From: Lachnospiraceae bacterium
GTDB taxonomy: Bacteria > Bacillota > Clostridia > Lachnospirales > Lachnospiraceae
Assembly (NCBI GenBank): GCA_030524705.1
Contig: JAUNGD010000035.1
Location: forward strand, 1 to 35,991
Direction of reading: 5' to 3'
Length of the DNA stretch: 35,991 nt
Part shown: piece by piece, positions 2,393 through 22,296 of the stretch
Numbering within the stretch: position 1 is the first letter of the stretch
Layout: each line of letters starts with the position of its first letter
Position numbers and translations under genes: made by a program
The notes under the pieces: generated by a model
Databases searched by the model: none
Told to the model about the DNA's origin: nothing
The model's input: the letters and a program-made list of their open reading frames with translations, nothing else

Positions 2393-4333
2393 TTATTTTA
2401 ACGTAAAGCCAGCGTACTCTCCCAGATCCATCAGCACAATACTATGGCTCGTCCTGCGCTGGCTCACCGGAATCATCTGCATATAATCCCCGTACAGGTA
2501 CGTCAGGTATTTATCGTACTCCTTCGGCACCGGAAACTGATATCCCTCAAAGTCCACATATACCGCTTCCTCCAGCCAGGCCGCCGGGAAAGAGCCTCTC
2601 TTCAGATTTCTTCCCATTCCGTCGTACAAATATTCTGTCTTGCGGTTTTTGAAAAATTCCAGAGACCGGTTCTGCGCCCAGAGTGCAAAACGCATGGGAA
2701 TCAGGTATTTCACATGATCCACGATCTTGCAGATGATGGGATGTGCGCCGCCGCCCTTGATATCGGTATCTCCCCATTTGTTAAACACCACAGAGCGGGT
2801 CAGCATTGTGACCATCAGATGAAGCTTCTGCGACCATTTATGACGTCCCGTCCGGTCATGGGAGAGCACGTCAAAAAAGATACCGTTGTGCATATCCATA
2901 AAATGACCTGTAAATTCTGTCGCGAACATCGTATTGTTAATACGCAGCTTCGTAAACGGATTGTAATTCCCCTTTTCCGTCTCAGGGATCTGCATAAAAA
3001 TATTGTCAGGAAGCTCCTGCTGCACAACCTGCTGGAACTTATCATAATCTTCTCTCAGCATCATGACATCCGCATCGTCGTCCCAGGGGATGAAGCCGTG
3101 GTGCCGGATCGCTCCCAGCAGCGTGCCCCCTGCCAGAAAATATTTGATATTATGCTTTTTGCAGATCCGGTCGATCTCCAGCAAATAGCCCAGAAGGATC
3201 TGCTGCACCTTCTCCAGCTTGCCCAGGTACGTATTGTCAAAAATGAATACCTCCCCGGTATTCTGAAGGCTCTTCACCAGGATGATCAGCCCGTCCTCCA
3301 AGGATACCTTCGGTTCAAACCCGTAATGCTCGATCAACTGCGTGTTGAGCCAGATGCCCGTATTTTCCACAGCTTCTGACTCTGCAGCATTTGTCCGGGA
3401 TGCCTCGCCAGTCTGAAAAACGCTCTTCTCCCGAGATGCTCCATCGGTCTGCGGTGTTCTCCCTGTACCGCTGCTCATGGAGATACGGCACCGATCCGGG
3501 AAATTATTATAAAGCATGATAGCCAGCTCCCCCGCCGATGCATTCGAAGCCAGACCGGAAACGTTAAAAATCTTATTTCCCGGACATTTCACCAGCACAA
3601 ACTGAATTGCCGTCAGAACATCATGTATACTGATATAAGAATTTCTATCCTGGGAGAGAGTCAGGCTTACCTCCTGCCCTGCCGCTGTTTTTCCGGCAAG
3701 CTCTGCCGCCGGGTGCGCCATCATCGGAATACGGGGACCGTAAATCAGGCCGGTACGCAATATATTAAATGCTGCTTTCTTTTCTCTCGCCCGAAGAGTC
3801 AGCATGCCTTCCATTGTCTGAAGCAGGTACTGCGCCTCATATCCCGGAGCGCAGGGATCCGTCGTCCCGGCCTCGTATTCGGAGGCCGCAAAACCATAGC
3901 CCAGCTTTCCGTAAACCCGCCCGTCAGACAGCAAAAGCGTCCGCCTGCAGGGAAGCGCAAAAACAGCCTCCAAAAGCGCACCGAAATGCTGCAGATATTC
4001 AATTGTCCCCACCACATCCAGAGTCGCTTCCCGGCAGCAAAAACCGGTCAGAATCACATAATCTGTCTTTTCCAGTGCAAAAGCTTCCTCAGAATACACC
4101 TGCTCCGTCTGCAGTTTTCCTTCCGTACACCTTGCACTCATCACGCGAAGATTTGCTTTTATACTGTCATTCCACGCCAAAAAGGACCATGCAACCGCTT
4201 TTTGCAGCTCCGGCTGCTCCCCGACCAGCAAAATATTTGCGCCCTTCAGCTTTGATCCGGGAATCAGCTCAGAGCGCACAGGTGCCTGCGCCCAGTCCAA
4301 TTCAAATTCATTCAAATAATCCCGCAGCAACAT
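2393..4333 (-). CDS. Degenerate epimerase-like domain fused to a LicD family transferase
   Basis: A 646-residue two-part protein. Residues 1 to about 350 look like an extended short-chain dehydrogenase/epimerase (LLLSDGRVYG, ILRTGLIYGPR, IFNVSGLAS). However, the glycine-rich NAD motif is lost (LLVGEQPEL in its place) and no YxxxK pair is evident, so this half is probably not catalytic. Residues about 395-640 are a LicD/FKTN-type nucleotidyltransferase-fold domain with FLAGGTLLGAIRHHG and WDDDAD (about 417-422), the metal-binding motif. LicD proteins transfer phosphocholine or a similar phospho-substituent onto wall polymers. A linker at about 290-330 is low-complexity (Ser, Thr, Glu). It follows the 214-residue epimerase-like gene by 16 bases. 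The donor substrate is unknown; no choline uptake or activation genes are present. Confidence 0.82.
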   Translation of the reverse strand: MLLRDYLNEFELDWAQAPVRSELIPGSKLKGANILLVGEQPELQKAVAWSFLAWNDSIKANLRVMSARCTEGKLQTEQVYSEEAFALEKTDYVILTGFCCREATLDVVGTIEYLQHFGALLEAVFALPCRRTLLLSDGRVYGKLGYGFAASEYEAGTTDPCAPGYEAQYLLQTMEGMLTLRAREKKAAFNILRTGLIYGPRIPMMAHPAAELAGKTAAGQEVSLTLSQDRNSYISIHDVLTAIQFVLVKCPGNKIFNVSGLASNASAGELAIMLYNNFPDRCRISMSSGTGRTPQTDGASREKSVFQTGEASRTNAAESEAVENTGIWLNTQLIEHYGFEPKVSLEDGLIILVKSLQNTGEVFIFDNTYLGKLEKVQQILLGYLLEIDRICKKHNIKYFLAGGTLLGAIRHHGFIPWDDDADVMMLREDYDKFQQVVQQELPDNIFMQIPETEKGNYNPFTKLRINNTMFATEFTGHFMDMHNGIFFDVLSHDRTGRHKWSQKLHLMVTMLTRSVVFNKWGDTDIKGGGAHPIICKIVDHVKYLIPMRFALWAQNRSLEFFKNRKTEYLYDGMGRNLKRGSFPAAWLEEAVYVDFEGYQFPVPKEYDKYLTYLYGDYMQMIPVSQRRTSHSIVLMDLGEYAGFTLK

Positions 4334-14271: not shown

Positions 14272-15648
14272 TCAGAAGCTCTCTTCCGATGGCTTCACTT
14301 TATATATAAATGTCCTGTCCCGGACGGTCTGCAAAAGCTCATTTTCTTTTTTTCTGTTTTCACGTTTTATCAGAGTAAGATAATCCTCCGCCAGTCTGAC
14401 CGCTCCGTTTATTCCCGCATAAGTTCGCCCCAGCGCCGCTTTGTCATACACCGGATAGGACAGCTCCAAAAGCGGGATATGCTTTTTCCCTGCAATTTCT
14501 CTTTCCAGAGAGCTTCCCAGCAGCAGGTCGATCTCGCTCTGTTCCAGAATTCCGCTGATTTCTCCCTGATCCTGGGTAAAATAAACGTCCTCCGCGAAAT
14601 CCTCCGGCAGCTCTTTCCTTTTCTCCGCAGCGTTTCCTGCTCCGAAATAGTCTGTAATGACCGCAGTCTTTATCACCGCTCCAAAATATTCCCGCAGAAA
14701 TGCGCCTGCAGCGGTGACTGTGCTCTCATCTCCCACGAGTCCGATGCTTTTTCTGGTATTTTCCTCATAAAGCTCCTCCAGCACCGGCCGGAAATAATAG
14801 CGGAACCGCTCTTCTTCTTTCTGCAAAAAGCTTTCTGCCACCTCTGCCTGAATACCCAGCCTTTCTGCCACCGCCAGCAGCATATTCCGGACTTCCAGAA
14901 TACCCACCGGCACAGAGGGAAATGTGAGATACGGGATACCGTAAAGCTGCTCCATTTTTTCGGCCGCTTCCTGCCCCCATTTTGAAAATACGAGGTTCAG
15001 CCCTGTCCCCGGAGCCTTTTTCAATTCTTCTACGCCATTTTCCGCCCCAAAGAATGTCCTGACCTCCAGTCCAACGCCCTCCAGGATCCGTTTTAGCTCC
15101 TCCAGATTCCCCCGAAAGCAGACATCCCGTCCGGGAAGAATCCCCAGCAGGTTGACAGATTTTTCATTCTTCTCCGGCGCTTCCATCCCAAGCTGAGGAA
15201 CCTTCTGCAGCAGCTCCGTCATCACACGGCTGTATCCATAATGACCATCCCCGTGAAAGCCCGCAGTCAGGCAGTCCACCACCGGCTCGCCCTGTTCCCT
15301 GGATTCCTTCGTCATAGCTCCCACATCGTCCCCCACCATGGCAGAAGCACAGCTATTTAGTACGACGTACAGCTCTCCGTCTATTACCTTGACTGTGTTT
15401 TTTATCTGTTCTCTCAAGCGGGACGCGCCCCCGAAAATAATGTGGCGCTCCTGCACTCCGGTACCAGGAATTGTACTGTCTCCGATCCAGCCTTTCCCGG
15501 CTCCTGCTGCCCTGGCAGCCAGCTCATTTTGTATCGCGCAGCCCGGATTGGAATGTACGATGGGTACAGCCTTTCTAATCGCTTCCACCGCCTGCAGCGC
15601 TCCATGAAGCGCGCAGCCGTTCCGGGGGCTTTTTACTGACATCTGCAT
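14272..15648 (-). CDS. Nitrogenase component 1-like protein, NifK-like subunit
   Basis: A 458-residue member of the nitrogenase component 1 superfamily. The N-terminus carries three cysteines in the positions of P-cluster ligands: C12 (NGCALHGA), C37 (HSNPGCAIQ) and C100 (LNSCASAMVGDD); the last motif also keeps the GDD of NifK. It is somewhat shorter than true NifK. The ribosome binding site AGGAGGTG is seven bases before the ATG, and the start follows the stop of the NifD-like gene by one base, so the two are coupled. With the NifD-like protein it should form a heterodimer or heterotetramer with an interface Fe-S cluster. No NifE, NifN, NifB or NifV relatives are present, so dinitrogen fixation is very unlikely; the substrate is unknown. 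Confidence 0.88.
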   Translation of the reverse strand: MQMSVKSPRNGCALHGALQAVEAIRKAVPIVHSNPGCAIQNELAARAAGAGKGWIGDSTIPGTGVQERHIIFGGASRLREQIKNTVKVIDGELYVVLNSCASAMVGDDVGAMTKESREQGEPVVDCLTAGFHGDGHYGYSRVMTELLQKVPQLGMEAPEKNEKSVNLLGILPGRDVCFRGNLEELKRILEGVGLEVRTFFGAENGVEELKKAPGTGLNLVFSKWGQEAAEKMEQLYGIPYLTFPSVPVGILEVRNMLLAVAERLGIQAEVAESFLQKEEERFRYYFRPVLEELYEENTRKSIGLVGDESTVTAAGAFLREYFGAVIKTAVITDYFGAGNAAEKRKELPEDFAEDVYFTQDQGEISGILEQSEIDLLLGSSLEREIAGKKHIPLLELSYPVYDKAALGRTYAGINGAVRLAEDYLTLIKRENRKKENELLQTVRDRTFIYKVKPSEESF

Positions 15649-15649
15649 C

Positions 15650-17068
15650 TTATTTCACCTCCTGTTTTACGTACCAGCCGCTGCTTTTTCTCAGCCAGGA
15701 AGCTTTGTAATACGCCTTTTCTTTTTCTTCTGCCAGCCTTCTCAGCTCCCCGCCTTTTTCTGCCTGTTCCAGCCTGGAAATCAACTGCTTTACTCCTTCA
15801 TATCCCAGGCATGCCGTCCGCTTCAAAGATACCGGAATACATCCCCGGCCCGCCGCAAATACTGCATCCTCCCGTACAGCCAGATAGAAATCCGCTTCCT
15901 TTTTCGCCAGCATATTCGCCTTCTCAAAGGGCTGCCCTACCGCCACCGTGACCGGAAGCGTCTTTTTCACCGTACCCAGCCGTTCCAGCAGACTGCGGTC
16001 CTCCTGCCCCACACCAGGAACCGCAATGCCGGATACGCTGCCGCCCAAACTTTCCACAAGCTCAATATACCTTTCTGTCCAGGCAGTTCCGGTCTGAAGA
16101 AATACCTGCCTGCCCGCCAGAATATTTTTTTTCACATATTTTTGCAGAACCCTTTCCTGCTCCTCAATATAACCGGCGGCCCTCTCCTGCAGCTCCAGCG
16201 CCTTTGCAACCTGATTTATGAATTTCCGGGTCCCCCGAATTCCTGCCGGAACATCAGTTTCGATATAAGAAACGCCGAACACCTCTTCCAGCTCCCGGGC
16301 AAAGTATCCTCCCTCCTCCGTATTAAGCACGATCGTAGCCTTTGCCCTTCCTGCCAGGCGTATTCCGTCTATGGAGGCATACTGGGGCAGCAGCAGAAAA
16401 GAAATGCCCAGATCCTCCAGGATCTTTGTCACTGAGTCCAGGGTCTCGATATTTTCCGACAGAGTCACAACGTTGATAAAATCCTCTGTTTTCCTGTCCG
16501 AAGCTCCTGTTTTCTCCACGATATAGCGCAGCAGGCTGTGCAGTACAATATCGTATCCGTTCACTGCGGTCTTTGTTTTGAATCCATCCGTATAAATAAA
16601 AATCACACGGATGTTTAATTCCTCTTCCAGCTCTGGCAGAAGAGAATTAATATCGTCATTATTAATGGCCACCACCGGCGTTCCCACAATAAAAATTGTT
16701 TTGGCCCCGGTCTCCTCACAGACACGGATCACCGTCCTTCTCAGCTTTTCATCGCTTCCCAGAATCGTGTCCCTCTCATTCAGGTTGGTGGAATACCATT
16801 GAAACGGCAGTTCCTGATTAAAATAAATTCCTGATGCGGCACATCCCGCCGCCCCATGCACGATCACGGCCGCCTGTTCTATCTTACTCAGGGCCTGAAC
16901 CGCATAAATGATTTCATCATACGTCGTCTGGGAAAAAGTACGGACTCTCTGCCGTATCTCATCCCCCAGAAGCTCATCCTTCAGCGTCTCCAGCGTTCCG
17001 TTGTAATGACTCACCGTACTGAGACGTTTTTCCCTGGTCAAAATCTTTCTTTCGTCTAAACAGCTCAT
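15650..17068 (-). CDS. Nitrogenase component 1-like protein, NifD-like subunit
   Basis: A 472-residue component 1 superfamily protein. C76 in VIVHGAAGCAAS matches the central P-cluster cysteine of NifD. The next expected cysteine is replaced by threonine (FIVGTPVVAINNDD, T130), and no counterpart of the first is seen at the usual spacing. The FeMo-cofactor histidine is also missing: the C-terminal segment GCIPVSLKRTACLGYEG has no histidine. The active site must therefore differ from Mo, V or Fe nitrogenase. I start at 17068 (MSCLDE), preceded by GAGGG with good spacing; an ATG at 17083 adds five residues with a poorer site. It lies between the NifH-like and NifK-like genes, the order of nifHDK. 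Confidence 0.87.
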   Translation of the reverse strand: MSCLDERKILTREKRLSTVSHYNGTLETLKDELLGDEIRQRVRTFSQTTYDEIIYAVQALSKIEQAAVIVHGAAGCAASGIYFNQELPFQWYSTNLNERDTILGSDEKLRRTVIRVCEETGAKTIFIVGTPVVAINNDDINSLLPELEEELNIRVIFIYTDGFKTKTAVNGYDIVLHSLLRYIVEKTGASDRKTEDFINVVTLSENIETLDSVTKILEDLGISFLLLPQYASIDGIRLAGRAKATIVLNTEEGGYFARELEEVFGVSYIETDVPAGIRGTRKFINQVAKALELQERAAGYIEEQERVLQKYVKKNILAGRQVFLQTGTAWTERYIELVESLGGSVSGIAVPGVGQEDRSLLERLGTVKKTLPVTVAVGQPFEKANMLAKKEADFYLAVREDAVFAAGRGCIPVSLKRTACLGYEGVKQLISRLEQAEKGGELRRLAEEKEKAYYKASWLRKSSGWYVKQEVK

Positions 17069-17093
17069 ATTTCTAACCCTCATGCTTCAAACA

Positions 17094-17969
17094 TTATATT
17101 CCCTCTGCACCGGCTACCTCGCCGGACTCCAGACTGTAAATCCGGTCTCCCCAGGTTCTGGCCCAGTCCCGCAGCTCCGTTAAGCCCATCGGATTCGGCA
17201 CCACCAGGTCGTCACTCTCGGCTATGTATTTTGCCAGCCCGCGGTAAATATCCGCGTGCTCTGATGCCGGATTGGCCTCAATCACCGTCTTGCCGTACAG
17301 CTCACTCTGGGATACCACCAGCGAACGCGGAACATAGCCCACCGCTCTGGTTCCTGTCCTGGATACAAAGTCGTCGATGATCGCTTTAGAATATCCGGCA
17401 GACAATCCATTTCCGATGATGCCGCCCAGCCGGGCCCCTCCGGTGGGCGCATATTTACTGATGGCCTTGAACAAATTGTTCGCCGCATAGATCGCCATAA
17501 AATCAGAAGAGCTGACCACATAAGCCCGATCGGTGATCCCATCCCGGATCGGCACGGCAAAACCGCCGCACACTACGTCCCCCAGAACGTCATACAATAC
17601 ATAATCCGGCTTAAATTCTTCAAAAAGATTCAGCTCCTGCAATAAGCTGACTGCCGCATTAATACCGCGGCCCGCACAGCCTACCCCCGGCACGGGGCCG
17701 CCGGATTCAATGCACAGAACGCCATTAAACCCAACCACTGAAATGTCATCCAGGTGAATCTTATTTCCTTCTCTCAGGCTGTCCAGTACCGTAGGAAGAT
17801 AATTATTTCCTCTTAAAGTATTCGTGGAATCACTTTTCGGGTCACAGCCGATCTGAATGACCCGGTACCCGGCTTCCGCCAGCGCTGCGCTGATATTTGA
17901 CGTAGTCGTAGACTTACCTATTCCGCCTTTTCCATAGATTGCAATATGTTTTCCTATTTTTTTACTCAT
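17094..17969 (-). CDS. NifH-like nitrogenase reductase family ATPase
   Basis: A 291-residue dimeric Fe protein of the NifH/BchL/CfbC type. All functional motifs are intact: P-loop GKGGIGKST at 13-21, switch region GCDPKSDST at 41-49, and the two cysteines that share a 4Fe-4S cluster between subunits, C98 (GVGCAGRG) and C134 ([10 protein letters not shown]). Length and spacing match NifH closely. The protein should pass electrons one at a time, with ATP hydrolysis, to the NifD/NifK-like pair encoded next. Its ATG overlaps the stop of the radical SAM gene (ATGA). The proximity and order support a dedicated reductase-catalytic pair rather than a maturation factor. Confidence 0.93.
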
Positions 17970-19192
17970 TTTTTCGTCCCCGATTTTTTCCAGTTTCCCT
18001 TTTCATCCAGCGTTATCCCTTCCTTCAGCCGGAACAGATCATGTACCGCTGAGTCTGACTCTGCCGTCGCATCCCTGAGTTCCTCCCAGGTAAGACCATT
18101 GCTGCGGTAAATATCCACCGTACGTTCCGCCACATCGAAATGCCATGCATCCTCCGGCGTGCGGTGTCCCTCAAAGGCGGAGCCCACATTGACATACCAC
18201 TGACTCGGAAATGCCACCACGCCCTGATTTACCAGATAGCTGATACCAGACAGCAGGGATTCCCTGGTCTCCAGACCGGAAACAAACGTAGATCGCACCT
18301 TGAAGCGTCCAAAAACATTCAGCTCCTCCCGCAAAGCGTCCAGCCAGTTCTGGCGGCCGCCGCAAAGCTGAGATTTCCCGGGACAAATATACTCAAACAG
18401 TTTTTCATTCCAGACCTCCATATTCGTGGCAATCGTGCGGAAGCCTGCCTCCTTATATTTTTCAAAAACAGAGAGATCCGTGGGGGCCCCTACGCAGGCG
18501 GTACCATTAAAATCTGCCAGCCCCGTCGCATCGGCAATAGCCTCCGCCACGTCAATATAATAATCTACCTCTCTGCGTTCCGGCACGAAACCGCCGCTGA
18601 CCGTCAGCTTGTGGAAGCCCTCTTTGTAAGCCGCCGCCACCGTCTCGCCGATCTGCTTCGGCGACCTCCAGGATATTCCCTGCGCCTCTGCATAAATCGC
18701 TCTTGTGGCATTGATGTTGCAGAACAGACAGTCAAGCCCCTTGTCCTTCAGAGAGCATTCATTACTGTAAACAATGAAGATCACACCGTAGCCATTATCC
18801 TGCGCGATGGTTCTCATGCTGGTACCGTCCGAGGTTTTCTGGTCGTAATAAGCGGATCTGCTCTTAAAACGAACATTTTCTACGACAGGGACTTTAGAGC
18901 CTCTCTCATAAATATTGTACTGGCCGTCCTCGTATTCCAGCGTGTACCTGCTGTCCCGGAACCATCGGATCCGCACCTGATAATTCCCCTTGGGCGTCAA
19001 AAAGCAGGAGGGAAATTCGATTCCCCTGTGCGCTTCCTTGTCCTGGGCGAACAATGCGTTGACTCCCTCCACATACGTATGTCCCAGATCGAGATTTTTG
19101 AAAATTCCCGGTTCAAAGGAAAGCCCTTCCACTAAAATACTGTTTTTCAGCCTGATTTCTTCATATAACTCTTTTTCTGAATATCCGCTCAT
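17966..19192 (-). CDS. Radical SAM protein with CX8CX2C cluster motif
   Basis: A 408-residue protein with a partial TIM-barrel-like radical SAM core. The cluster-binding motif is C146-x8-C155-x2-C158, where the usual spacing is CX3CX2C. KLTVSGGF further on resembles the SAM-binding GGE strand. About 130 residues precede the core and have no recognised domain, and no extra C-terminal Fe-S cysteine cluster is visible. AGGAAGG precedes the ATG. Being translationally coupled to the NifH-like gene, it may mature a cofactor for the nitrogenase-like enzyme, as NifB does, or process the imported substrate or product. It does not look like NifB itself. The radical SAM assignment is by motif and fold pattern. 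Confidence 0.8.
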
Positions 19193-19195
19193 TTC

Positions 19196-20002
19196 TTATC
19201 CTTCCTGTCCAAATTTTATTTGTTCCTTCACTCCATATCGTTTCAGCAGTGTGGCCCCGATCACCCGCATGATCTTGTCAGAAAAATACCCCATCAGCCC
19301 CAGGGTTATGATTCCGACAAAAATCCAGTCGATTCGAAAGTACAGCCGGGAGGTATAGATCATATAGCCGATCCCGGATTTTGCCGCCAGCATTTCCGCT
19401 GTGACAATGGAGGTAAACGCATTCCCCAGGCCGAGCCGGGCTCCGGTAAAAATATAAGGCGTCACAGAGGGCAGAACAATGGAATATATGATCTGCCATT
19501 CACTGGCTCCCAACGTTCTTGCCGCATAGATTTTCGTGGGATTGATACTCATGACGCCGGTCAGGGTATTAATCAGCACCGTAAACCAGGTGCTGTACAT
19601 GATCAGAATAATCTTTGATCGCTCTCCCACGCCGAACCACATCAAAAACAATGTGAGGAATGCGATGGCCGGTACAAACCGGAAAAAATTGACAAAGGGC
19701 TCTACCAGCTCTCTTAAGAAATTGATCCTTCCTATCAGGATTCCCAGAGGTACCGCCAGGATAAAGCCCAAAAACCATCCCGAAAATACACGGTAAGAAC
19801 TGATCAGGATGTATTCCCACAATTTCCCGTTGGCGATGATCTCCCAGCCGCCGGTCACTGTCTTTACCGGATCGGGGAAGAAATTTTCCAGGTAAAAGTG
19901 TGATGCATAAAACCAGATCAGAATTACCAGAAGCCATGTGACAATCCCGCTTTTCACCAGATACCGGAATGCTTTATACAGCTTCGCTGTTACTTTATTC
20001 AT
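19196..20002 (-). CDS. ABC importer permease, SsuC/TauC type
   Basis: A 268-residue inner-membrane permease of the nitrate/sulfonate/taurine group (binding-protein-dependent transport family). The coupling motif region is EWQIIYSIVLPSVTPYIFTG, and about six hydrophobic segments are seen. AAGGAG lies upstream of the ATG. It follows the ATPase gene by 15 bases and precedes the radical SAM gene by three. Together with the ATPase and binding protein it forms a complete importer for a small anionic or neutral organic molecule. The operon partners suggest an organosulfur substrate; related transporters also move nitrate, taurine, pyrimidine precursors and riboflavin-like molecules. Confidence 0.88.
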   Translation of the reverse strand: MNKVTAKLYKAFRYLVKSGIVTWLLVILIWFYASHFYLENFFPDPVKTVTGGWEIIANGKLWEYILISSYRVFSGWFLGFILAVPLGILIGRINFLRELVEPFVNFFRFVPAIAFLTLFLMWFGVGERSKIILIMYSTWFTVLINTLTGVMSINPTKIYAARTLGASEWQIIYSIVLPSVTPYIFTGARLGLGNAFTSIVTAEMLAAKSGIGYMIYTSRLYFRIDWIFVGIITLGLMGYFSDKIMRVIGATLLKRYGVKEQIKFGQEG

Positions 20003-20017
20003 TTCTTTGCTCCTTAT

Positions 20018-20836
20018 TTAAATACCTGCTCCATAATCAAAATGAGCCTGTACCCTATCCCGCAGGTCCAGGAATTCTCTGGAACGGTCATTTCTGGGAT
20101 AGGACAGATCTACCTCATAATTCTGGTATATCGTAGCATTCGGGGACATGGACATGATACTGATATTTTTCCCCAGCAGAATTGCTTCGCTGATGTCATG
20201 AGTCACAAAAATAATCGTTTTCCCCGTCTCTTTCCATATATGCAGCAATTCACTTTGCAGAATACGCCTTGTATGGGCGTCCAGCGCTCCAAAAGGCTCA
20301 TCCATGATCAGAATATCGGGATTTCCCGCCAAAGCTCTGGCAATCTGCAGCCTCTGTTTCATACCCCCGGACAGCTCATCCGGATATTTGTCTGCATGAT
20401 CCTTCAGTCCTACCAGCTCAATATACTTCTCTGCTGTTTCCCTGCGCTTCTTTTTTTCTGTTTTCTGCATTTTCAGCCCGTATTCCACATTTCCTCTGAC
20501 GGTTTTCCAGGGGAAAAGCGCCGCATCTGCATTTTGAAAGATAACTCCGCGGTTCTTTCCCGCTTTACGCACCTTATTTCCGTATACCAGCACTTCCCCT
20601 TTTGTCGGCCTGGACAGTCCTGCCAGAATATTCAGAAGAGTGGATTTTCCACAGCCGCTCTTACCGATCAGTATGCGAAAATCCCCCTCCTCAATGTCCA
20701 GGTTTACATCCTTCAAAATATCCGCACTGTGTTCTCCATCCAGTATGCCGTAGTTTTTGGAAATGTGCCGGCAGGAAACAGCCGGGCCCGGAGGCACAGC
20801 GGCCCCCGCAAGATTTACAGCTATACTCTGTGCCAT
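20018..20836 (-). CDS. ABC importer ATPase, SsuB/TauB type
   Basis: A 272-residue ATPase of the nitrate/sulfonate/taurine import group. Walker A GKSGCGKST is at about 58-66, the signature ELSGGMKQRLQIARAL at about 154-169, Walker B ILIMDEPFGALD at about 175-186, and the switch histidine lies in IFVTHDISEA. The first 20 residues are a non-conserved extension. GGGAGGAG precedes the ATG with good spacing. It lies between the binding protein (15 bases upstream) and permease genes and energises the importer from the cytoplasmic side. Confidence 0.9.
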   Translation of the reverse strand: MAQSIAVNLAGAAVPPGPAVSCRHISKNYGILDGEHSADILKDVNLDIEEGDFRILIGKSGCGKSTLLNILAGLSRPTKGEVLVYGNKVRKAGKNRGVIFQNADAALFPWKTVRGNVEYGLKMQKTEKKKRRETAEKYIELVGLKDHADKYPDELSGGMKQRLQIARALAGNPDILIMDEPFGALDAHTRRILQSELLHIWKETGKTIIFVTHDISEAILLGKNISIMSMSPNATIYQNYEVDLSYPRNDRSREFLDLRDRVQAHFDYGAGI

Positions 20837-20851
20837 AGGTCTCCTCCCGGT

Positions 20852-21835
20852 TTAAAAGTCAATTCTGTCCGGGAATACGTTGGTGATGGCATCCTTCAGC
20901 ACGTAGCTTCTCAGATCATAGGCATTCTCGATCAGGCCGTTTTCGATGGACCATTCTGCCACACTGGTGATATGATCCAGATCGCTGTCTTTAAATTCAA
21001 TCTTGTAATTGTAGGTTCCCAGTCCCTTCAGGGCGTCATCCTTTGCAATTCCCAGATCATCAGATAACAGCTCAGCCGCCTTTTCCGGGTCATTGTTGAT
21101 CAATTCCGTGGCTTCATCCAGAGCAACGATCAGTTCCTCCACCGCTTTCTCATTCTCATTCGCAAAGCTCTCATCCACTACGAGATATGCAATATTGACC
21201 TGATCAATATCCGAGAGATCCGCGATCGTCCTGGAGCCTTCCACCTCGTTAGCTTCATTTGCATACTGCTTGGAAAGCCATACCGCATCCGCATCACCTG
21301 TGGCAAAGGCCGCCAGCATTTCTGCATCCGATGAAAAATACAGATATTCCACTTCATCCTTGCCAATTCCATAGGTTTCCAGTGTTTTGGCTATCTCAAA
21401 TTCATTGACTGTGCCGCTGGCCACCGCCAGTTTTTTTCCTTTCAGATCTTCCCCGGTCTGTATCTCTTCTTTATTTACATAGAGACTCTTTGAGTCCCCC
21501 TGCCCGCTCAGGATACTGCTCACCAGACGCAGGTTTGAAGACTGAGCCGCCCTGGTGCAGACTGCATAGTCATTAGCCTCTCCTACCTGCACTTCATTCA
21601 GGATTACTCCATTAATCGTATCAATGCCGTAAGAATACGTAACGATCTCTGCGTCAATGTTGTGCTCCTCCAGAATCCCCGCTGCCTCGGCCACACGGAT
21701 CTGGGCTGAGAATACGCTGCTGTCAGCTCCTATGGAAATTTTTATCGGCTCTTCCTCTGCCTGAACATTCAGTGCCGCCAACGCTCCGCTCAAAATCAAT
21801 CCGGTTATGATTCCTGCCATATATCTTTTTTTCAT
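20852..21835 (-). CDS. ABC importer substrate-binding protein, SsuA/NMT1 type
   Basis: A 327-residue periplasmic-type binding protein of the SsuA/NMT1 fold. It has a Sec signal peptide with a positively charged start, a hydrophobic core and a likely cleavage after NVQA (residue 26). There is no lipobox cysteine, which is unusual for a Gram-positive binding protein because it would not be lipid-anchored. The mature chain has typical two-lobe motifs: the start KISIGADSS, then VGEANDYAVCTRAA and LKGKKLAVASGTVNEF. It has several acidic stretches. AGAGGAG is just upstream of the ATG. Ligand identity cannot be read; relatives bind alkanesulfonates, taurine, nitrate or thiamine precursors. Confidence 0.88.
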   Translation of the reverse strand: MKKRYMAGIITGLILSGALAALNVQAEEEPIKISIGADSSVFSAQIRVAEAAGILEEHNIDAEIVTYSYGIDTINGVILNEVQVGEANDYAVCTRAAQSSNLRLVSSILSGQGDSKSLYVNKEEIQTGEDLKGKKLAVASGTVNEFEIAKTLETYGIGKDEVEYLYFSSDAEMLAAFATGDADAVWLSKQYANEANEVEGSRTIADLSDIDQVNIAYLVVDESFANENEKAVEELIVALDEATELINNDPEKAAELLSDDLGIAKDDALKGLGTYNYKIEFKDSDLDHITSVAEWSIENGLIENAYDLRSYVLKDAITNVFPDRIDF

Positions 21836-21885
21836 AATTCTTCTCCTCTTTTCTTATAAATTCTACAAATTACCTCTGATTTTCT

Positions 21886-21960
21886 TTACTTTATCCAATT
21901 TCTCCCAGGGGAGCTTCTTGCAGCAACAGCGTATGATCCCTCCTGCGGAAATAAATTCAT
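21886..21960 (-). CDS. Possible 24-residue peptide ORF
   Basis: Between the YezD-like gene and the binding-protein gene lies a 24-codon frame, ATG at 21960 to TAA at 21886, starting three bases after the YezD-like stop. The product is basic with SYAVAARSS in the middle and no recognised family. There is no strong ribosome binding site, so translation would depend on coupling. It may be a leader peptide or chance. Confidence 0.3.
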   Translation of the reverse strand: MNLFPQEGSYAVAARSSPGRNWIK

Positions 21961-21963
21961 TTT

Positions 21964-22140
21964 TCATACTCTTTTTTCCCTTTCACCATCATAAACAATT
22001 CCTTTTTCTATCGTATTGAGCTGAACCACTCTTCCATTGTGGATCACTGCGGTCACAGAACCGCTTTTAATCCTTCTCACCTGTTCCTCAATTTTCTTTA
22101 TGTACGATTTTTCCAGACCCGGCTTCTTTTTTTCTTCCAT
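21964..22140 (-). CDS. yezD: YezD-like (DUF2292) small protein
   Basis: A 58-residue protein. Its core, about residues 14-46, has the DUF2292/YezD pattern: an amphipathic helix (KIEEQVRRIKSGSV), then GSVTAVIHNGRVVQLNTIEK, where the glycine-serine-valine turn and the hydrophobic strands match the family. GAAGGCAGGG upstream gives a usable ribosome binding site. In Bacillus and relatives, YezD-type proteins are found beside sulfur-assimilation and sulfonate or cysteine genes; their biochemical role is unknown. Here it is the first gene of the operon, downstream of the leader terminator and promoter, and it supports a sulfur-related function for the whole cluster. The family assignment is from memory of the pattern and needs a profile search. 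Confidence 0.75.
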   Translation of the reverse strand: MEEKKKPGLEKSYIKKIEEQVRRIKSGSVTAVIHNGRVVQLNTIEKGIVYDGEREKRV

Positions 22141-22159
22141 AACCCTGCCTTCTTTCTGT

Positions 22160-22203
22160 AAAACAAAAGGAGGCCTTAAATCGTAATACGACTTAAAACC
22201 TCC
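22160..22203 (-). terminator. Leader terminator ahead of the YezD-like gene
   Basis: On the minus strand, GGAGG (22199-22203) and CCTCC (22169-22173) close a long stem through TTAA and TCGT/ACGA pairs, followed by TTTTGTTTT (22160-22168). It stands between the promoter and the first gene, so transcripts must read through it: an attenuator arrangement. Confidence 0.75.
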
Positions 22204-22238
22204 AGTTTGTCCGGTTGGCTTAATTTGATGCTGTTTTA

Positions 22239-22270
22239 TTTCCTATTTTTCCTACTTGTTAGATAGGAAT
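22239..22270 (-). promoter_or_regulatory. Candidate repressor operator overlapping the transcription start
   Basis: The minus strand has CCTAT-n7-GTAGG as an imperfect palindrome (22251-22267), followed by a second TAGGAA half-site at about 22240. It overlaps the -10 box and start site of the operon. The half-sites resemble those of Rrf2-family sulfur regulators such as CymR; this regulator assignment is inference. Confidence 0.45.
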
Positions 22271-22296
22271 ATAGCACACTTCTTTTCATTTGTCAA
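22268..22296 (-). promoter_or_regulatory. Sigma-A promoter of the nitrogenase-like operon
   Basis: On the minus strand, consensus TTGACA (22291-22296) and TATATT (22268-22273) are exactly 17 bases apart. Transcription would start at about 22260, ahead of the leader terminator and the YezD-like gene. Confidence 0.85.

Follow-up and report, generated by a model that had tools for sequence, protein, structure and literature searches.

Features of a probable Isr-type sulfonate reductase operon in a contig from a Lachnospiraceae bacterium

Results

Gene cluster and encoded proteins

A DNA stretch of 35,991 nucleotides from a Lachnospiraceae bacterium (assembly GCA_030524705.1, contig JAUNGD010000035.1, positions 1 to 35,991), hereafter called the window, carries on its minus strand one compact run of genes coding for a YezD-like small protein, an SsuA/TauC-like importer, a radical S-adenosylmethionine (SAM) protein (B) and NifH-, NifD- and NifK-like proteins (H, D and K). 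This run is very likely an Isr-type sulfonate reductase operon for sulfur scavenging, of the family of the isethionate-desulfurizing IsrBHDK system of Rhodobacter capsulatus published in August 2024 by Morimoto et al. (PMC11423573). The genome, in which the window is contig C132, has a size of 3.87 Mb and is 88% complete.

From the binding protein gene to the K gene all intergenic gaps or overlaps are 15 nt or shorter, the B and H genes overlap by 4 nt, and the genes from yezD to K presumably form a single transcript. A gene coding for a LUD-domain protein is located past K on the opposite strand. A preliminary description of this DNA had proposed the gene content and a single transcription unit, and all the genes that it named were confirmed by protein families and coordinates (Table 1); the position at which it ended the unit, 22296, corresponds to a promoter-like site. 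It had also reported intact iron-sulfur and ATP motifs in H, and both cysteines (Cys98 and Cys134) and the GKGGIGKST motif are indeed kept.

The nearest solved structures to the substrate-binding protein were those of sulfonate- and taurine-binding proteins (36 and 33 bits), and no useful match was obtained when B was compared with solved structures. H matched MarH of the methylthio-alkane reductase (Mar; structure 9fmg) with 392 bits versus 269 bits for the best nitrogenase NifH, and its score with the nifH equivalog model (368 bits) was 27 bits short of the cut-off of 394. D and K were the only two PF00148 matches of the genome, and no nifB above the cut-off was found in this 88%-complete assembly.

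Table 1. Genes and putative signals of the cluster, with the evidence for each assignment
Feature	Position	Strand	Evidence
NifK-like catalytic subunit, IsrK-like	14272..15648	-	PF00148 232 bits; Cys12, Cys37, Cys100; K tree
NifD-like catalytic subunit, IsrD-like	15650..17083	-	PF00148 195 bits; R48/C81/P136, N254; D tree
NifH-like ATP-driven reductase, IsrH-like	17094..17969	-	PF00142 311 bits; P-loop GKGGIGKST; Cys98, Cys134; H tree
Radical SAM protein, IsrB-like (variant_rSAM, CX8CX2C)	17966..19192	-	NCBIfam NF045502 439 bits, cut-off 125; Cys146, 155, 158
Importer permease, SaoP/TauC/SsuC-like	19196..20002	-	PF00528 95 bits; SaoP 157 and TauC 140 bits, below cut-offs
Importer ATPase	20018..20836	-	PF00005 122 bits
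Importer substrate-binding protein, SsuA/TauA-like	20852..21835	-	TIGR01728 (SsuA_fam) 108 bits, below cut-off
Short open reading frame of 34 amino acids, three consecutive Cys codons, 4-nt overlap with the yezD stop	21863..21967	-	Sequence and translation
YezD-like small protein, 58 amino acids (DUF2292; OscA-like)	21964..22140	-	PF10055 39 bits, cut-off 22; OscA 21.7 bits, below its cut-off
Terminator-like hairpin in the leader, 16-bp stem and T run	22169..22203	-	14 terminator-like sites in the region versus 9.0 expected
Palindromic operator-like box TCCTA-N9-TAGGA, downstream end of the promoter	22250..22268	.	One of 3 sites in the genome
Sigma-70-type promoter-like site TTGACA-17-TATATT	22268..22296	-	11 of 12 consensus bases; consensus match only

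Diagnostic residues

According to its discoverers, IsrD retains one P-cluster cysteine, the other two being replaced by Arg and Pro/Ser, and lacks the FeMo-cofactor ligands (Cys275/His442), whereas IsrK keeps the P-cluster cysteines 12, 37 and 99 and IsrH (WP_013067945.1 in R. capsulatus) keeps Cys 99 and 135 (PMC11423573). The window D protein contains Arg48, Cys81 and Pro136, that is, one P-cluster cysteine with Arg and Pro at the other two positions, which is the IsrD hallmark, and the window K protein keeps three P-cluster cysteines. Position 254, which corresponds to the cysteine ligand of the Fe8S9C cluster, is Asn in the window; it was Cys in all the 115 other D/E-type proteins compared and in none of the 78 Isr-type ones. 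The column of the histidine ligand contained Val in the multiple alignment and Arg in the pairwise alignment. Cysteine at position 136 was also kept in the 115 non-Isr proteins without exception, and the three cysteines of K were kept in 74-75 of the 76 Isr-labelled rows, a number that includes three second K copies at locus edges. Two Isr-type D proteins (L120:9962-11398 and L145:2-1450) showed Thr or Ala in place of the one remaining cluster cysteine.

Sampling and phylogeny

Relatives of the cluster were collected by scanning named genomes with a four-sequence D alignment, which yielded 78 loci from Lachnospiraceae, Pseudobutyrivibrio, Clostridium, Pectinatus, Treponema and other Spirochaetes, Azoarcus-labelled metagenome-assembled genomes, Rhodopseudomonas, Rhodovulum, Rubrivivax, Chlorobium, Anaeromyxobacter and others. 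These taxa fit the phyla named for Isr in PMC11423573. The Isr-type D set was defined by the absence of the third P-cluster cysteine and comprised the window, L033-L035 and 74 of the 78 named loci. All trees were built with FastTree (LG) and are given with its local support values; L082, L084, L111 and L112 are missing from the D tree, from which identical sequences were removed, and they score the same as rows that were kept.

In the tree of 193 D/E-type sequences, the 78 Isr-type proteins, including that of the window, formed an exact clade (support 0.978); MarD from the solved Mar structure and a further 114 NifD/E-like proteins fell outside it. Essentially the same split was recovered with K (175 sequences, support 0.902) and with H (83 sequences, of which MarH and 14 others are outside; support 0.975), the mismatches being L084 and L203, which are absent from the label list, and three Rhodopseudomonas loci that have a second K at their edge. 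Thus, the three subunits are placed outside the Mar and nitrogenase clades, as had been anticipated in the preliminary description. The description had further considered the enzyme as a distinct new reductase, and Mar as the only sulfur-linked member of the superfamily; neither view is supported, since IsrBHDK has the same gene set and cysteine pattern, and the window proteins show the Isr diagnostic residues and clade with Isr-type proteins, those of purple bacteria included.

Close relatives of the window D were scarce. Among 249 other genomes of the family sample, three encoded a close D (45-56% identity), and no other close D was found in the class sample (291 genomes) or in the phylum sample (398 genomes), both including the window's own genome. 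Around Rhodovulum, a family sample of 394 genomes gave nothing at E 1e-60 other than Rhodovulum itself. Some genomes showed several related proteins: five D-like matches were detected in a 4.9-Mb genome of the same class (G222), and PF00148 matches numbered 28 in R. hungatei and 27 in C. luticellarii.

Sulfur genes near the relatives and in the genome

Gene neighbourhoods were counted in 79 loci (78 named plus the window), many of them cut by contig ends, with each family named from one representative. By clustering, a related binding protein was present in 53 loci and a radical SAM B in 57, so the neighbours that had been expected beside the homologues occur in most of the loci, not in all. 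Genes found near HDK also included those for sulfite reductase C-like (7 loci), siroheme synthase-like (6), ThiS (6), ThiF (6), JAB (8), CysN (5) and cysteine desulfurase-like (5) proteins. DUF2292 was detected in 15 loci, and the clustering overlooked the window's own copy. The sulfite reductase and siroheme genes beside some of these relatives fit a release of sulfite.

The genome of the window encodes a TIGR02912-like sulfite reductase (C-like; 160 bits, cut-off 324), and this gene adjoins others coding for O-acetylhomoserine sulfhydrylase-like, ThiF-like and JAB-like proteins.

SAM synthetase genes and multiple B genes

The metK gene, which encodes SAM synthetase, was present in 40 of the 79 loci, directly before H in 24 of them, and a methylthioadenosine/S-adenosylhomocysteine nucleosidase gene in 23. 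Among the 19 named genomes, 15 carry at least two metK genes over the cut-off, one of which always shares the contig with HDK at a distance of about 17 kb or less. The single metK of Rhodopseudomonas, Rhodovulum, Chlorobium and Rubrivivax is on another contig. The genome of the window is silent on a second metK, its only match being a 30-bit fragment. In C. luticellarii (G925), a third metK (C20:47486-48643) is some 7 kb away from a Mar-like D-K pair (C20:37703-40396), and extra SAM supply may accompany Mar too.

Several B genes are often associated with a single reductase. Of the 42 loci that span 20 kb or more (41 named plus the window), 16 carried at least two radical SAM B genes, 24 one and 2 none; some of the 16 are near relatives of each other. 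More than one D at a locus was never found by clustering, and 72 of the 79 loci have one. At least two strong B matches (over 340 bits) were present in 9 of 18 genomes, that of the window having one. Two to four radical SAM B genes together with importer genes surround a single HDK set in L098, L112, L120, L123, L134 and L139. The CX8CX2C motif was conserved in 88 of 93 B copies.

The lineage of B tracks that of the neighbouring permease. Over 44 pairs the correlation of distances was 0.40, a value obtained after dropping 24 of 87 B without a permease in reach and 19 of 63 pairs that share a permease, and one in which related species count more than once. It was 0.38 (40 pairs) when D distance was allowed for, and none of 500 permutations gave a value as high. 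When permeases were swapped between the B genes within five loci, the real pairing ranked first among 32, although this test is small.

The modules of the window have different closest relatives. Its D groups with L078, L080, L081 and L088 (support 0.826), and its B with L089 and L091 (0.968). Importer identity to the window is 68-77% for L089 and, in pieces, 55-82% for L091, the D proteins of both being 49% identical; in L126 the importer is 65-73% identical and D 38%. The multiple B genes per HDK and the tracking of the permease by B suggest one common reductase that works with interchangeable modules, each specific for a substrate.

Upstream signals

The promoter-like site was the best of 12 in the scanned region, a number without enrichment over shuffled sequences (10.0, standard deviation 2.8). 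Between this site and yezD, the leader folds with a z-score of -2.95, matched by 1 of 200 shuffles, and its hairpin is a possible transcription attenuator. No Rfam family matched the window at the gathering threshold; in seven related loci Rfam gave one tRNA, one small RNA and two T-boxes.

The palindrome at the downstream end of the promoter recurs in the relatives. In the 78 related loci, 21 sites with the pattern WCCTA-N9-TAGGW were found, 20 of which are intergenic and spread over 15 loci; each of 11 controls with scrambled half-sites gave 0 or 1 intergenic match. With a slightly looser pattern, sites in the relatives precede yezD/metK operons, cysteine desulfurase-like and other genes. 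The other two boxes in the genome of the window are just upstream of amino-acid-type ABC importer genes, whose best models are cystine, glutamine, ectoine and lysine/arginine importers, all below cut-offs, and one of these two regions includes a gene for a PatB C-S lyase (488 bits, over the cut-off). The spacing and the targets of the box resemble those of a CymR-type regulon, and we take the box itself to be similar to a CymR-type box. The CymR regulon of B. subtilis includes cystine uptake and sulfonate genes (PMC3828012). In L089, which has the closest importer relative, a CCTA-N9-TAGG box is absent upstream of yezD. A different repeated sequence around GACAGGTTC is found in this locus at about 3150-3350, before yezD; because this other repeat stands in the place of the box, the regulator may differ between relatives.

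The short open reading frame with consecutive Cys codons precedes the importer genes, and similar short frames starting with SAGG occur near sulfur genes in L089 (position 3385) and in L085 and L086 (12798). It could be a candidate cysteine-sensing leader peptide. As a conserved leader peptide it was set aside: BLAST against 81 related loci gave no match at the cut-off, and a looser scan of the 78 loci found SAGG-containing short frames near sulfur genes in a few loci, too few to claim conservation.

Discussion

Comparison with Isr and proposed function

Anaerobic growth of R. capsulatus on isethionate is lost when isrB, isrH, isrDK or ssuCAB is deleted, an isethionate lyase can replace DK, and seven genes improve the growth of R. 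sphaeroides on isethionate; IsrBHDK occurs in several phyla, including intestinal bacteria (PMC11423573). The window shares with Isr the B-H-D-K set with an SsuABC-type importer, the one-cysteine D with Arg and Pro/Ser, the three-cysteine K, the two-cysteine H, the absence of FeMo-cofactor ligands and a B that is unlike NifB and whose gene adjoins H. It differs from the purple-bacterial Isr loci in that its importer and B come from other sub-lineages and in its front part, with yezD, the operator-like box and the Cys-rich short frame. The published Isr neighbours xsc, tpa and tauABC were not among the flanking genes scanned in the window. An NtaA-type monooxygenase gene followed by a permease gene is common to Rhodovulum strictum and the published R. 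capsulatus locus, and neither xsc nor tpa was found among ten scanned R. strictum proteins, some of which are perhaps spurious frames. The cluster has been filed as a member of the Isr family.

By analogy with Isr, the ABC importer would take up a small sulfonate, and the H dimer would hydrolyse ATP and pass electrons to the D-K complex, which is predicted to contain iron-sulfur clusters and to lack a nitrogenase-type cofactor. D-K would then cleave the carbon-sulfur bond together with B, with release of sulfite, and the sulfite reductase-like and O-acetylhomoserine sulfhydrylase-like proteins encoded elsewhere in the genome would incorporate the sulfur into amino acids. A repressor of the sulfur type probably acts at the promoter palindrome, so that the operon is turned on when cysteine is short; the operator-like box common to the window and its relatives lends indirect support to expression under sulfur limitation. 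We infer this biochemistry, the repressor and the substrate for the window organism. In the preliminary description an importer-fed, sulfur-linked enzyme releasing sulfur reductively had been proposed; import and the link to sulfur are supported, and the reductive release is drawn from the analogy with Isr. Isethionate serves as the default guess for the imported substrate, with somewhat less than even confidence.

Several observations weigh against this assignment. The column of the first P-cluster cysteine of D is loosely aligned; 40 of the 73 other proteins that could be compared have a Cys at or close to this position, as do 2 of 78 Isr-type ones, and the D proteins of L120 and L145 lack even the remaining cysteine. 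Window D is only 28% identical to that of Rhodovulum strictum, and the clade is connected to the tested R. capsulatus enzyme through residue pattern, gene set and distribution, the trees being free of R. capsulatus sequences. A test of the published numbering gave mixed results: three Rhodopseudomonas D proteins have a start that gives Cys 74 as published, but the third K cysteine of Rhodopseudomonas is at 95, 96 or 101 instead of 99, and no Rhodovulum start reproduced the published D or H residue numbers. The importer proteins are all under the curated sulfonate-importer cut-offs. Neither the B nor the importer of the window belongs to the purple-bacterial type (B cluster 15 versus 1), and therefore the substrate may differ. 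A pattern closely similar to the box occurs 3 times in the genome and its backward version 11 times, for which reason the number of boxes is uninformative there and only their places count. Finally, the genome is 88% complete.

Role of the radical SAM protein

The second metK, the multiple B genes per HDK, the tracking of the permease by B and the different nearest relatives of the window's D and B go beyond the published picture of Isr, to which the shared operator-like box is a further addition. The words metK, nucleosidase and paralog are absent from the main text of PMC11423573, and no description of the metK, multi-B or module features appeared in titles or abstract starts among the matches listed, in a library that lacks most subscription papers and preprints. 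We tentatively propose, with limited confidence, that one HDK reductase serves exchangeable modules of B and importer, each for its own sulfonate, in which B consumes SAM in each turnover to make a form that HDK can cleave, the module of the window being a non-isethionate one with a separate history. A dedicated metK and nucleosidase would then be explained because each radical SAM protein consumes SAM every turnover.

An Isr enzyme whose B is a cofactor or cluster maturase like NifB, with the extra B copies redundant or working for other enzymes, is an unlikely though serious alternative. It draws on nitrogenase, in which the radical SAM partner builds the cluster, and on Mar, for which the same is assumed (PMC12552129); the role of IsrB was left open by its discoverers (PMC11423573), and metK is not found close to the cluster in purple bacteria or Chlorobium. 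On the other hand, the likeness of IsrB to NifB is limited to the radical SAM motif (PMC11423573), which in 88 of 93 copies here is of the CX8CX2C type, and the cysteine ligand of the NifB-built cluster is absent from all 78 Isr-type D proteins. The metK near the cluster and the nucleosidase genes are as expected if SAM is consumed in bulk, and the tracking of the permease by B also speaks against a maturase. The metK, multi-B and permease results thus favour B as a substrate-specific partner that uses SAM at turnover, although these are correlations, which could also be explained if SAM recycling pays off when sulfur is short or if B genes serve other enzymes.

Other substrates and other enzymes

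That the family and mechanism are those of Isr but the imported compound is a thioether, a sulfoxide or a sulfate ester instead of a sulfonate seems improbable. Nitrate- and Sao-type models score as well as or better than the sulfonate-importer models, whose cut-offs the importer does not reach, and the type of substrate of Isr was tested in one organism only; the best solved relatives of the binding protein, weak as these matches are, point to sulfonate or taurine, and the sulfite reductase and siroheme genes of some relatives speak for sulfite as the product.

A methylthio-alkane reductase making methanethiol is very improbable. Among solved structures, those of Mar (PDB 9FMG/9D9U) are closest to H, D and K, and Mar is also an HDK enzyme that performs ATP-driven C-S cleavage (PMC12552129), a likeness to the Isr type that may hold by analogy. 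Mar, however, binds a P-cluster and, through Cys270/His429, an Fe8S9C cluster, and MarB has NifB motifs (PMC12552129). Both ligands are absent from window D (in Isr-type D proteins Cys is absent in 78 of 78 and His in 77 of 78), the best model for window B is that of another family, NF045502, with no NifB model listed, and window D and H are separated from the Mar clade and MarH. Clade and cluster ligands led us to reject Mar membership. Isr, Mar, NfaBHDK and other Group IV nitrogenase-like enzymes belong to the same superfamily branch (PMC11423573), and the non-Isr D/E-type proteins differ from the window in keeping Cys at both 136 and 254.

A nitrogenase or a tetrapyrrole reductase can practically be discounted despite the superfamily membership and the near miss of H at the nifH cut-off: D and K are far below the equivalog cut-offs and H is below them too, those of CfbCD, BchLNB and BchXYZ included, and, within a genome 88% complete, only two PF00148 proteins, the absence of nifB, nifE and nifN and the missing FeMo-cofactor ligands led to the rejection of nitrogenase, in agreement with the preliminary description, whose argument against chlorophyll and F430 enzymes is in line with the profile scores, by which the tetrapyrrole enzymes were judged, CfbD being absent from the trees.

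Significance

Sulfonates occur in animal guts (PMC11423573), and which anaerobes release sulfonate sulfur matters for gut sulfur cycling; Isr profiles have been applied to mouse-gut genomes in a later paper (PMC12330013). The locus ties a little-known nitrogenase-like family to gut and rumen clostridial relatives through residues, operator-like box and gene context. If one reductase does serve exchangeable modules, the role of IsrB becomes testable, as a substrate-specific partner rather than a cofactor builder, and the type of module would predict the sulfonate used by each bacterium.

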